A DNA stretch of 64,000 bases from Pegea sp. RAD2-039 (Eukaryota > Chordata > Thaliacea > Salpida > Salpidae): assembly GCA_034620365.1 (NCBI GenBank), contig JAQGEQ010000214.1, positions 21,018 to 85,017 of the forward strand. Direction: 5' to 3'. The first letter of the stretch is position 1. Every line of letters starts with the position of its first letter. The notes beneath the pieces are model-generated. The model was not told the DNA's origin, made no database searches, and saw nothing but the letters and a program-made list of their open reading frames with translations. The translations under genes and the position numbers were made by a program. Below are positions 764-61,743 of the stretch, piece after piece.

Positions 764-1862
764 CTAACTACATTTATATGACCCAACACAAGCTTGACAA
801 GAAGCAAAGATTTCGATAAAGTATTCAGCAAAGGCTTTTGGTGCTATGTTTAGTTCAAATGATGATTCTGCGCACATTTGTTTGGCTTTTTCGTGACGTT
901 CTTTTTGAAGTTTTGCGCTCATTTCCAATCTTGCCTGATTAGAATTTAATCAAGATTAAAAACAAAAAAGTGTTTTGAGCTTTCTTGTGTTGTGCTATGA
1001 TTATAGATGTAGCATTTGAAAATTTGTAAATTGCAACAAATGTTATATAGCTTTGCTAAATTACTTTTCTTTAAATACTGACCTCTCTTAAGCTACCTCT
1101 TCTGCTTCTGGTCTGACGCGAAGATGAAAGCAACTCCGACTAAAATGTATTTTGTATCAGAAAGCTTAGGAGCAGTATTTAAGATATAAAAAGCAAACTT
1201 ACTTGTATGTGTATAACTCTTTTTAATGTTTCCGTGGTGTATAAAATCTGCTTCAACTGATCACTTGTAAAATGATTCTCATTTTTAAGTATTGTACAAA
1301 TACTCTCATTGATTTGTTGATACAAAGTACAACATTTTGAGGAAGATTCAGATACAAAAATAAATCCAATTTGATTAGGTTTAACCATCAGATCAGCATC
1401 TTTCTATAGGAGCAGTACAAACAAAACCGCTCAGAGTTTTTATTACTATAGATTATGATATATATTATTAAATTTTAAAAATACTAAACTGAATTAACAA
1501 TTTAATAACTCTTAAATTAATAGTTTTTAAAGCTCACAATAATCTTGTTCATTATTTTTGCAGAGATTTCCAATTGATATTGAAACGTTCTTCTTTCACA
1601 GACTGAGTTTAACAATTGGAACTGTTTTAAAGACTTTTTCTGAGCTTGTTCTGAGATTGTTTGAGCATTTTCAGAGGGAGCGTTGAGTAATGGATTGCAT
1701 GAAACTGACGGAATTGCTGTAAATTGTAACTAGCTATGATAAAAATCATCTTAATTCAAAATAGTAATAATAAAGTTAGTAAAATTCTATAAAGAAAGCT
1801 TAATACTTACCTAAATATAAAGCTAACAAAATTGTATAAATCGTCAAAGTAAAATTCAACAT
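764..1862 (-). CDS. Secreted cysteine-containing protein with furin-type site (family unrecognised)
   Basis: Five exons on the minus strand join in frame (1862-1811, 1716-1538, 1403-1203, 1139-1083, 934-764), all with GT-AG borders, giving 219 residues. The start was chosen because it yields a hydrophobic signal peptide (MLNFTLTIYTILLALYL) and because an acceptor (TTTTTCCATAG) ends 16 nt before it. The mature part looks mostly helical, with nine or so cysteines including a CC pair near residue 100 and four in the last 60 residues. Residues 155-158 are RSRR followed by Gly, a furin/proprotein-convertase type site, so the product may be cut in the secretory pathway. I recognise no family; a prohormone, cytokine-like or other extracellular protein is possible. 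The exon structure is well supported; the function is unknown. Confidence 0.7.
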
Positions 1863-1934
1863 CTTTTATTAGAAGCTTCTATGGAAAAACTCTTGAAACA
1901 AGAGAAATTAGCTGTCACGTTGTAGTTAGGAATC

Positions 1935-2025
1935 TTTTTCCAAAATTCTCAATTTTTCAATGAACTCTGCTGCTAGCTCTTTTAAACCATGTGCTGCCTT
2001 TTTTTTCTGCTAGTAATCTCTAGTT
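1935..2025 (-). other. Short open stretch upstream of the secreted-protein gene
   Basis: On the minus strand about 25 codons read without a stop (a helical, Glu/Lys/Leu-rich segment ending at a TAA near 1935). It has no convincing splice partner on either side. It could be a last exon of an unseen gene or chance. Confidence 0.15.
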
Positions 2026-2049
2026 CTAGTATAAAGAAAATGAAAAAAA

Positions 2050-57899: not shown

Positions 57900-58130
57900 A
57901 TCAATAAGTAAACCAAGGTTTGGACCCTTCTTCCCGACTCCATCACTGCATCTAATTCTTCTTTGAAATTAAGAGAAATGTAGCTTTAGTAATTAAAGTA
58001 ATAAATTTTGTTGACAACTTTTTTATGTTTGTGCTCTTTTGCCAGTTTTGATACGTCTTATTATGTTGCGTTTGTATTAAGATCTGCTTGATTTGCTATC
58101 TTCAGCCATAAATAAGATAAATACTTTGCC
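57900..58130 (+). mobile_element. LINE 3' tail
   Basis: Begins with CCCGACTCCATCACTGCATC, like the 'DSIT' codons of the other LINE ends, and finishes TTCAGCCATAAATAAGATAAATA. Confidence 0.45.
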
Positions 58131-59770
58131 CTTTTGCTAGTTAACTTTTATTTTAGGCTTCTGCAGTTTGTTTAGTGATACATGTGCTTGCAGGAAATAA
58201 CAATTAAAAGATAATCTGTAGCCTCAACAGCCTTTGGGTCAAACTTTTTGCACCTTACTAGTCTGTCACTTTCTTCAATTGACAGAATTTCGCTTCAACG
58301 GCCTCAATTTAAATTTTTAGAGGGACAAAAAAATTGAAAAAAAAAAGAATCAGATCTTTTGGTTATAGATCTTAAAGAAGAAAGTTTTGAAACTTAATAT
58401 TGTTACCATACATCTTCTTAAAGTTTTGTAAGCTAATTAAAATATCTTTCAACTTTATCTATCATCTTGAATATAATATGATAAATATAAATTGAACTTT
58501 CTAGATCAGAAGATTCTTTTTATCAAGCAGATTTTCATATAAAACTGTTAATAGTAAAGATAATATCGACTACTAGCTTATACAACTAAATTTTGTCACA
58601 AGTTTTAGTTTAGAAATATAAAAAACTTTTGGTTTTAAAATCTAAGCTTAAACCTGATTAGTTTATTTTGAAATGATTTTGAAAAGAAGAATGTAAGTTT
58701 TTTTATCTCAATTATTTCATAACTCAGTAAATTTTTCTTGATATATTTCAGCAACATATTTCAGTTTATATGAATAATTTTTATACTGATATTATGATTA
58801 ATAAGTTTTAATAGTCATTTATTTAAAAAATTATACGCATTTTAAACCTAATAATTAATCTTTTAATATTTAAAAGTTACAAACATTTTTTTTTTTTGGT
58901 AAAATTAAAATAAATTTTATTATTTCAAATTCTTAAATAAATCTTTAAATTCTAAATATAGAAAAAAACATCCCGTCTTTTCGAATTCATTTATTTGCTT
59001 TTAAATTTTCATAAAGCTTTTTTATAATTGTAAAAATCTGAATTTCAACACAAATTTTAAAACTGTTAAAAGAAAAAAGATCTTTTTTCACAAAAGAAAT
59101 TTACTTTAAAAGTTTATTTACTTTATTTGTCAATATTTTGATTTTGTTTAGTATATCTTTTACAATTATAGTTTTTATTTTTTAATCTTTTTATTTTGAA
59201 TTTAAATTTCATCAAACCAGATTAAGAATATTTTTAAAGTTTGTTTTAGATAATAATTGCTTATTATTTATTTTATTTACGAATTTAGTTTTTTATTTAA
59301 AATATTTTTCTTTTATAAACTTTTGAATTAAATGAATTTGAAATTAATTCAAATTTATCATTTTTCTTAATATTTAAATCAAATAAATTATCAAGAAAAT
59401 GTTTACTTATTTCTTTATATTTTTATATAATTTAATTTGTTTTGTAATATCTTATTTTAAAATTACTTTTAAACATTAGATTATAAAATGTTTTATAATT
59501 TCTGAAAACTTTTCTAACTTTAGGTAAAAAGTAATTAAATCAAAATATTTAAAATTGAAACAGTTAAAAGTTTTTTTATAAATTATGTAAAATATTGTCT
59601 AAAAATTTTGAATTCTTTTTTTAATAATTTGGTTCATTTATAAACTTTAAACTTTTTTATATTAAATTATTAATTTTATTAAACCGAAAAAGTAATTTTT
59701 CATTTAATTGTTATTTTCTCTGAAATAGTTATTTTATTAACTAATCAATAAATTTGTTATTTTTAAACAG
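58130..59770. other. Highly AT-rich DNA upstream of PACSIN
   Basis: Nothing recognisable. It ends with an acceptor (TTATTTTTAAACAG, ending 59770), 49 nt before the PACSIN start. Confidence 0.5.
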
Positions 59771-59819
59771 GCTAATTGATTTATTTATTTTGTAAATATT
59801 TTAAGTTTGAAATATTCAA

Positions 59820-61743
59820 ATGTCCATTTCAATTAATCAAGGAGACTCTTCTGTAGATGTGAACACTGGGAGTTTCTGGGAGGTAGACATCTTTCAGTGA
59901 AAGATTTTTGGGAGTTAGGTAAAAATGATAAAATCTTTTATTTAGATTGGACAATTTAAACGAACCACAGCACGAATTGATAATGGACCAAAAGTTTGTG
60001 ATGATTTATTAAATTTTATCAAAGAAAGGTCAAATATTGAAGAACAATACAGCAAGCTGTTGAAGCATTGGAGCGCCAAGTACAGAAAAGTTAATTTACA
60101 AAAAAAAATTTTTTTTGTTTTTTAATTTCTACAACTTTCAGGTGATAGAGAAAAATGCTTCTTACAACACACAAGAGATGAGCTGGTTGCAAATGTTGTG
60201 TGAAGCTGATAGAACGGCAGAATTACATTTGAAAATGAAAGAAAGTTTGATGACTGACCCATATGAGAAGGTTGGAAAGTTAATTATTAACAGCATTTCA
60301 GAAATTCTTTCAAAGAATTTTTGTCAAGTTGAATGAAGATAAACTAAAATATTTCAATTGAATTTTTGGTGGAAATCTTTTAATTTTGTTGAAGGTGAAA
60401 TGTTGGAAGAAGGAAAATTATCACAGTTTGACTTTAGGAGGCTTGAAAGAGTCGAAAGCTGCTTCAGATGAATTTTCACGAGCTCAAAAGCAGTGGGCAA
60501 AATATTATAAGAAAGTTCAAGAAGCTCGGAAAGCTTATTTCAATATTTGCAAGGAGGAAAGAACAGCTCAAATACAAGTTGGTTCAAATCATTTTCTGTT
60601 GCCAAACTTCAATTTGTTTTTAAGGAGAGTTCCGCCAAAAGTGATTCTTCTCAAGCTCCAGAAAAGTTGAGAAAACTTCAAGAAGTTGTCGAAAAAAAAA
60701 GCAGTGAAAAAGAGAAAGTAATTTTGGAGAATTTGAAATTTGTAAATTGAAGTTTGTTGTTTAGTTGATGGATAAATACGAATCCGCGCTTGTTGATCTG
60801 GACCGAGATCAACCGAGATATATGGAAGATATGGAGAGAGCATTTGAAAGATGTCAGGAGATGGAAAAGAAGCGTTTGGACTTTTTTAAGGACATCTTCA
60901 CCAACATTCATTCTCATTTAGATCTTTCAAATCTGCCAGAGTCACTTTCAAACTTTCAAAATATTCAATTTTTTAGTAATTTTTTTGCAGATATTCAGAT
61001 ATTTATGTTGATATGGCAACAAGTATTTCCAACGCTAATTCTGAAAAAGATTTAAATTGGTGGAAACGCAATAATGGACCTGACATGCCAATGAACTGGC
61101 CTCAATTCGAGGTTCACGTCACGAAAAACACTTTCAGAAATTTAATGAATACTTTTTAGGCTTATGACCCGGAGAAGATTTTGCTGCAAAAGTCGATGAG
61201 TAAAAGACAGGGGTCGAAAGTTGCTAAACATGTGGCTGGAATGGATACTGTTAGTGGATCACAATATATCCCAACAAACGACCAAAACAGGTCCTTAATT
61301 TTCACTTGAGATGCTTCAAGTACTTCTTAAAAACTCTTTCATGAATTAATGATGAAATTTCAGTTCTAATTTGGAAGTAACTCCAAATTGGATTGAAGAT
61401 AAAAATCCGTTTGCTGAAGCCAATTTTGAAGCTAAAAACGAAGTTGAAGATGAACCAAAAGGGGTCTTAGTGAGAGCTTTGTATGATTATAACGGACAAG
61501 AAGATGATGAATTGACCTTTAAAACCGGTTTGTTCATGAAATTTCAAAATGAGTTTTTTTAGTTGTTGAAAAATCGATTTGAAAATTTGATGAATTTAAA
61601 TTAGAAGTTTTTCATCTTTTAATTCATCTTTAGGTGAAGAATTATTCAAATTAGAAGATGAAGATGAACAAGGCTGGTGTACAGGAAGATTAAAAAATAA
61701 TCGGGTTGGTTTATACCCTGCAAATTACGTTGAGAATGTTTAA
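59820..61743 (+). CDS. PACSIN: PACSIN/syndapin (F-BAR plus SH3)
   Basis: About nine or ten exons. Exon 1 encodes MSISINQG...NTGSFWE, the family's usual opening. The F-BAR part follows: [20 protein letters not shown] (59945 on), [60 protein letters not shown], then [18 protein letters not shown]. An NPF motif ([11 protein letters not shown], near 61400), which binds EH domains, precedes the C-terminal SH3 ([18 protein letters not shown]...[20 protein letters not shown]) ending NYVENV. PACSINs bend membranes and link dynamin and N-WASP to endocytosis. The linker is shorter than in vertebrate forms, with one NPF seen. Confidence 0.93.

Follow-up and report, generated by a model that had tools for sequence, protein, structure and literature searches.

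The window analysed here comprises the last 64 kb (21018-85017) of the 85,017-base contig C197, and has a guanine-plus-cytosine content of 30.4%. It belongs to a compact animal genome assembled to 105.7 Mb in 387 contigs. Ten genes in the window are considered, whose start codons are preceded by acceptor-like sites that a preliminary description of the DNA had read as marks of spliced-leader (SL) trans-splicing. The same genome holds a multicopy family of small RNA genes, which could supply such a leader. The genes for SLC12A (1054 aa) and BTBD9 (615 aa) consist of a single exon each, and their families were assigned by Pfam. ATP6V0B and PACSIN were identified by spliced alignment to human proteins and provided ten internal introns of 47-317 nt. 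These four genes mark the genome as that of an animal. For the NuMA-like, CAP, kelch and flippase genes, the names used in the preliminary description are taken over as given. The ten ATGs were located via N-terminal peptides and the sequence ahead of each was then inspected. Acceptors were scored with a generic, hand-set and untrained score, taking the best site within 60 nt upstream of the ATG. The p values below refer to a control of 7,028 ATGs, taken from the window and from sampled 10-kb loci on either strand, with L025 and L036 left out.

1863..1893 (-): secreted protein, acceptor AGAGTTTTTCCATAG and 16-nt leader, ATG at 1862, p 0.12
12121..12153 (-): CAP protein, acceptor CTCTTTTAATTTCAG and 18-nt leader, ATG at 12120, p 0.026
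17660..17708 (+): SLC12A, acceptor GTTTAGTTTTTGCAG and 34-nt leader, ATG at 17709, p 0.19, TTNYAG motif present
21302..21333 (+): ATP6V0B, acceptor CTACTTCTGTCCTAG and 17-nt leader, ATG at 21334, p 0.043
23639..23702 (+): kelch, weak acceptor CATCATTTGAAACAG and 49-nt leader, ATG at 23703, p 0.50, chance level
30553..30585 (+): NuMA-like, acceptor TTTTCCTTTCCTCAG and 18-nt leader, ATG at 30586, p 0.001
38548..38583 (+): BTBD9, acceptor AATTTTCTTTTTTAG and 21-nt leader, ATG at 38584, p 0.036
40489..40522 (+): flippase A, acceptor GTTCATTTTTTCCAG and 19-nt leader, ATG at 40523, p 0.062
48048..48090 (+): flippase B, acceptor TTTATTCTTTTTTAG and 28-nt leader, ATG at 48091, p 0.009
59756..59819 (+): PACSIN, acceptor GTTATTTTTAAACAG and 49-nt leader, ATG at 59820, p 0.32, chance level

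All eight splice junctions named in the preliminary description (1878 and 12138 on the minus strand as well as 17675, 21317, 30568, 38563, 40504 and 48063) were recovered exactly, with an AG ahead of each. Nine of its ten leader lengths (16-49 nt) are also correct, with the exception of SLC12A, for which 34 nt replace the 25 nt given. The kelch acceptor had been called weak, in agreement with its p of 0.50 against other ATGs. For the secreted gene, the best-scoring acceptor is not AGAGTTTTTCCATAG and instead a different site 29 nt upstream of the start. Within the 18-nt leader of the NuMA-like gene lies an additional ATG, whose frame ends at a stop two codons later.

An excess of acceptors just ahead of starts exists, and it is smaller and less uniform than first held. 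Six of the ten window genes (CAP, ATP6V0B, NuMA, BTBD9 and both flippases) reach p values of 0.001-0.062 against control ATGs. The combined Fisher p for the window is 7.1e-6 against other ATGs and 3.5e-3 when the reference consists of dinucleotide-shuffled versions of those 75 nt, though these values are possibly optimistic because the preliminary description perhaps chose starts partly via their acceptors. Its claim of an acceptor ahead of every start does not hold up, as four of the ten genes (secreted, SLC12A, PACSIN and kelch) are individually no better than chance. Adding seven genes from outside the window, scores of at least 7.5 occur at 8/17 starts compared to 11.9% of other ATGs (p 3.6e-4), with 7/10 inside the window and 1/7 outside. 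An acceptor matrix trained on the 10 introns was overfitted and gave different single-gene values; the hand-set score was used instead. The motif TTNYAG, a flatworm trans-splice acceptor motif according to the accessible part of PMC12582326, lies within 60 nt upstream of 6/10 window starts compared to 20.7% of other ATGs (p 0.0076). The same motif precedes 4/7 outside starts (p 0.037) and 10/17 starts overall (p 6.6e-4). By names assigned by eye, the outside genes with the motif are STK36, CDK5, AurA and MRPL15, and those without it are PHKG, AurB and profilin. The outside loci that we take, by eye, to be STK36, CDK5 and Aurora kinase genes are long single frames. The STK36-like kinase gene (name by eye), also a long single frame, is present in four near-identical copies (L001-L004), two each on C102 and C247.

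Near-start acceptors might simply be chance sites in T-rich DNA, picked out by selective reading in the preliminary description. Chance would explain why four of the ten window genes do not individually exceed other ATGs, and it is in line with the shuffle-based p values, which are 3.5e-3 in the window, 0.67 for the outside genes and 0.023 when all 17 genes are taken together. The overall TTNYAG frequency argues in the opposite direction, as does the position of the high scores, which are found at 8/17 starts within 0-60 nt and at 2/17, 5/17, 3/17 and 3/16 in the next 60-nt steps upstream. We consider chance a decidedly improbable account.

The space between BTBD9 and flippase A is operon-like in length and reads from the sequence as follows.

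40432..40503 (+): BTBD9 stop codon to flippase A acceptor, 72 nt

The two genes are on the same strand, an acceptor precedes the second gene, and the gap lies within the operon threshold of 300 bp at most that is given in the accessible part of PMC12582326. Neither AATAAA nor ATTAAA occurs in 40381-40503. As the flippase A acceptor follows the preceding stop by only 72 nt, any 5' exon joined in cis must lie inside or beyond BTBD9. A shared BTBD9-flippase A transcript cut by trans-splicing would be simpler than such a cis exon. The near-start acceptors as a whole could also belong to introns in the 5' untranslated region (5'-UTR), spliced in cis to first non-coding exons upstream on the same contig. 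Cis and trans acceptors resemble each other and 5'-UTR exons are not recognisable from sequence alone. Furthermore, 66% of flatworm trans-splice acceptors on average show some cis-splicing according to the accessible part of PMC12582326. Cis-splicing as a general explanation is nonetheless unlikely, as it is opposed both by a flippase A acceptor just past the preceding stop codon and by the presence of an SL-like RNA gene family in the genome.

The RNA gene family was found through the promoters of small nuclear RNA (snRNA) genes. U2 has 19 matches in the genome and U1 likewise 19, of which 18 are above the cut-off. Five U2 and six U1 copies have in common two upstream features, an element like CCRCAAANAYNAAR at ~57 nt and a TATA-like box at ~30 nt from the start of the RNA. 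Some U1 copies have looser versions of the element or TATA-like box, and one U4 and one U6 gene carry a like element with a TATA-like box. A search pattern of promoter element, TATA and GGTR, at the spacing expected of a leader donor, retrieved 15 rows genome-wide and 0 in a reversed-pattern control. The rows comprise seven of U1, three (at two places) of a U1 variant, one of U4, two of a new RNA and two unassigned. The new RNA gene was reached via its two rows, which lie on C267 and C286. A generic pattern of a donor and RATTTTTGG was abandoned, with 16 matches against 28 in the reversed control and no repeats seen.

The candidate leader exon of the new RNA gene measures 21 nt, CCAGTTTCATTTATGGAATTG, and is followed by the donor GTA. 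The gene is laid out as promoter, ACAGTTTCATTTATG(G/A)AATTG with the splice point directly before GTA, a hairpin, ATTTTGG, and a hairpin of the form AGATGCA-CTTT-TG(T/C)ATCT. Exon and donor together, searched as a 24-base pattern with up to 3 mismatches, occur at 11 places compared to 1 in the control, with GTA at 9/11 and ATA at 2/11. The exon alone retrieves the same 11 places at up to 2 mismatches and a further 6 at 3 mismatches, compared to 3 in the control.

11 places on C104, C261, C267, C273, C275 and C286: class a, from the exon search

The sequence of 8/11 class a copies (L049, L050 and L054-L059) was inspected, and each of the remaining three is 97% identical to an inspected copy by BLAST. 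Some of these places might represent a single locus in its two haplotypes. Conservation across the eight inspected copies is high for the promoter, the exon, the Sm-like region and hairpin III. The predicted RNA of ~75 nt begins with the leader and the donor, which lies at the base of stem-loop I, and continues with stem-loop II, the Sm-like AUUUUGG and stem-loop III. Predicted folds of six copies contain stems I and III in 6/6 and stem II in 5/6, the latter with shifted pairing. In the named three-hairpin structure, 94% of 200 cells pair compared to 31-51% when the structure is slid along the sequence. Two copies had no Rfam match at E values up to 0.5, and all eight copies searched at E up to 10 matched only bacterial families, with E of 7.8 or more. 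A covariance model had one match (E 0.57) in 276 kb of genome sequence excluding the copies. Neither the window nor bases 1-20000 of its contig contain the exon at up to 5 mismatches.

SL RNAs of other animals are bound by Sm proteins, contribute their leader as a 5' exon and have the donor at the foot of stem I. The family found here combines a short exon at a GT donor (9/11 copies) with an snRNA-type promoter, as judged by sequence, and with multiple copies in the form of 11 class a places and 6 partial or divergent ones. On its sequence features, the family appears to have the architecture of an SL RNA gene.

We suggest that the host animal uses SL trans-splicing, and we regard the whole explanation, including the gene family, its targets and the operon, as likely. 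The sequence itself shows the genes with their promoter, conservation and copy number, as well as the acceptors and the 72-nt gap; the fold is predicted. The snRNA-type class a genes would be driven by a promoter resembling those of U1, U2, U4 and U6, yielding the ~75-nt RNA with the leader CCAGUUUCAUUUAUGGAAUUG, the donor GUA, stem-loops I-III and an Sm-like site bound by Sm proteins. The leader would act as a 5' exon, which the spliceosome would join to a pre-mRNA devoid of an upstream donor, at its first good acceptor. Acceptors a few tens of nucleotides before the starts of many genes would be the targets, including window genes with good acceptors. The acceptors of CAP, NuMA, BTBD9, flippase A and flippase B would be good candidates. 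In what would be the clearest case, leader addition might release flippase A from a precursor that also contains BTBD9. Transcription, Sm binding, trans-splicing and the identity of the target genes are what we infer here. The trans-splicing proposed in the preliminary description finds good support in an independent, multicopy SL-RNA-like family and agrees with the 72-nt gap, and has lost the acceptor at every start.

Several observations weigh against SL trans-splicing, in addition to the possibly selective choice of starts. The seven genes outside the window show only a weak acceptor signal apart from TTNYAG, and their hand-set score is not elevated (Fisher p 0.44). The donor GUAYAAA is, by eye, a poor match to U1, and 2/11 copies have lost the GT. 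No base pair of the predicted fold has both partners changed, and each of 500 column shuffles scores just as well, so that covariation neither supports nor refutes the fold. No SL RNA gene is evident by eye inside the spacer of the one 5S array found, although such linkage is not required. Relatives of the family add possible signs of decay. BLAST with 88 bases finds 17 places, namely the 11 of class a, 3 on C267 and 3 that match only from hairpin II on. The matches at C267:34581, 151729 and 241771 start at the last exon base, and in the one copy inspected the whole exon and a few preceding bases are deleted precisely up to the donor. The idea that these exon-less copies are variants with another leader was dropped, since the inspected copy is an exon deletion. 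In class b (3 places), the two copies inspected, one of them only in part, keep the promoter and have a different 5' part, with CCGGTTTAACTGATGAA followed by GTAAGAG in one and CCGGTTTAAGTGATGAA followed by ATAAGAG in the other. As one inspected copy has GT and the other AT, some members of the family are perhaps decayed. Class b could represent either a second leader or a branch in decay, and the case made here for trans-splicing does not draw on it. A final oddity is an AUG within the leader, which each trans-spliced mRNA would carry ahead of its annotated start.

The new RNA could alternatively be an Sm-class snRNA with another role than SL donor, in which case GGTA would be incidental. Such a role would be compatible with ATA replacing GTA in 2/11 copies and with a fold that lacks covariation support. 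It fits poorly with the absence of an Rfam match at the E values searched, with the donor at the foot of stem I and with the G before GTA kept in 9/11 copies. We view an snRNA of other function as rather improbable.

The AUG is located in AUGGAAUUG, with which the leader ends, and six nucleotides separate it from the donor. Flatworm leaders also carry an AUG, hence its presence here is not disqualifying for an SL. Once joined to the ten window leaders, the frame opened by this AUG would stop within the leader in six genes (SLC12A, ATP6V0B, kelch, NuMA, flippase A and PACSIN). In CAP and BTBD9 it would continue in phase through the main start, and in the secreted gene and flippase B it would overlap out of frame. 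If trans-splicing takes place, the leader AUG would create a short upstream frame or, where in frame as in CAP and BTBD9, a Met-Glu-Leu extension of the N-terminus.

Nematode SL1 RNA has an snRNA-type promoter, three stem-loops, an Sm site and many copies. The new RNA also resembles SL1 (RF00198) in leader length, which is ~22 nt in the nematodes according to the accessible part of PMC3795323. The letters of leader and donor differ from SL1, and no SL gene is evident in the 5S array here. The SL1 model RF00198 had 0 matches in the genome at E up to 10 (50 of 41,002 first-pass candidates scored) and no match in the eight copies. Flatworm SLs share the AUG near the 3' end of the leader (PMC3795323, accessible part) as well as TTNYAG and short-gap operons (PMC12582326, accessible part). 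However, flatworm leaders are 36-37 nt long and end in ATG according to the same part of PMC3795323, whereas the leader here has 21 nt and letters unlike theirs by eye. The glass sponge Aphrocallistes vastus has a similarly compact genome rich in single-exon genes and with a reported leader. The accessible part of PMC10282587 gives 80 Mb, 19,578 genes and 12,409 single-exon transcripts. Its leader of ~37 bp, obtained from nanopore reads (PMC10282587, accessible part), differs from the one found here in a comparison by reported length only. Ciona is similar in having operons with almost no intercistronic sequence and dissimilar in its 16-nt leader ATTCTATTTGAATAAG and its SL RNA of 46 nt (PMC7986045, accessible part). 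For hexactinellids, the accessible part of PMC7986045 lists trans-splicing and states that no operons had been reported.

A search of the open-access literature for the leader letters gave no match, and no report of this leader or of a hexactinellid SL RNA gene sequence was found there. While the phenomenon is known, the leader described here, the genes encoding it and the pairing of BTBD9 with flippase A seem to be new additions to it. A small genome of low guanine-plus-cytosine content, intron-poor genes and a probable spliced leader together recall glass sponges, an affiliation that we put forward as a guess at about even odds; a cox1 search had no match. Nematode, flatworm, rotifer and tunicate origins, weighed on 18S features, stay in consideration. 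Should the host be a glass sponge, the findings could represent a non-bilaterian SL RNA family with a 21-nt, AUG-bearing leader and an SL-resolved BTBD9/P4-ATPase operon, a tentative and rather doubtful prospect. Where and how often SL trans-splicing arose in animals is a long-standing open question. The U-snRNA-like promoter of the candidate SL RNA family would make the question of origin testable by comparing SL RNA and snRNA genes, and the family supplies the exact leader to seek in reads. Annotation of this genome could contain errors in gene models and 5'-UTRs if leader trimming and operons are not taken into account.

The genome searches also produced observations on other RNA genes. Two U1-like genes, at C40:223740-223834(-) and C40:371255-371349(+), have the 5' end AAACTTACTTGG in place of ATACTTACCTG and lie within clusters of normal U1 genes. 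On their sequence, these are a U1 variant with an altered donor-pairing arm. The locus L051, at C102:184957-185048(-), carries the snRNA promoter element and TATA, and its downstream part has no Rfam match at E up to 0.5. U2 genes form clusters at C32:1261123-1282814 and C39:922538-940379, each with U1 genes ~80-100 kb further on. The paired layout of U2 then U1 on C32 and C39 points to a possible presence of both haplotypes in parts of the assembly. In the 5S array at C1:1385410-1386691, four tandem genes repeat every ~368 nt and are accompanied by a truncated additional piece; C84 carries a fifth and weaker match to 5S. A full 18S copy is located on C27, and a second 18S-like stretch, L035 (~C125:284325), is incomplete and apparently rearranged. 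Within the window itself, frames at 56439-57183 and ~27300-27935 resemble, by eye, the remains of non-LTR retrotransposons.

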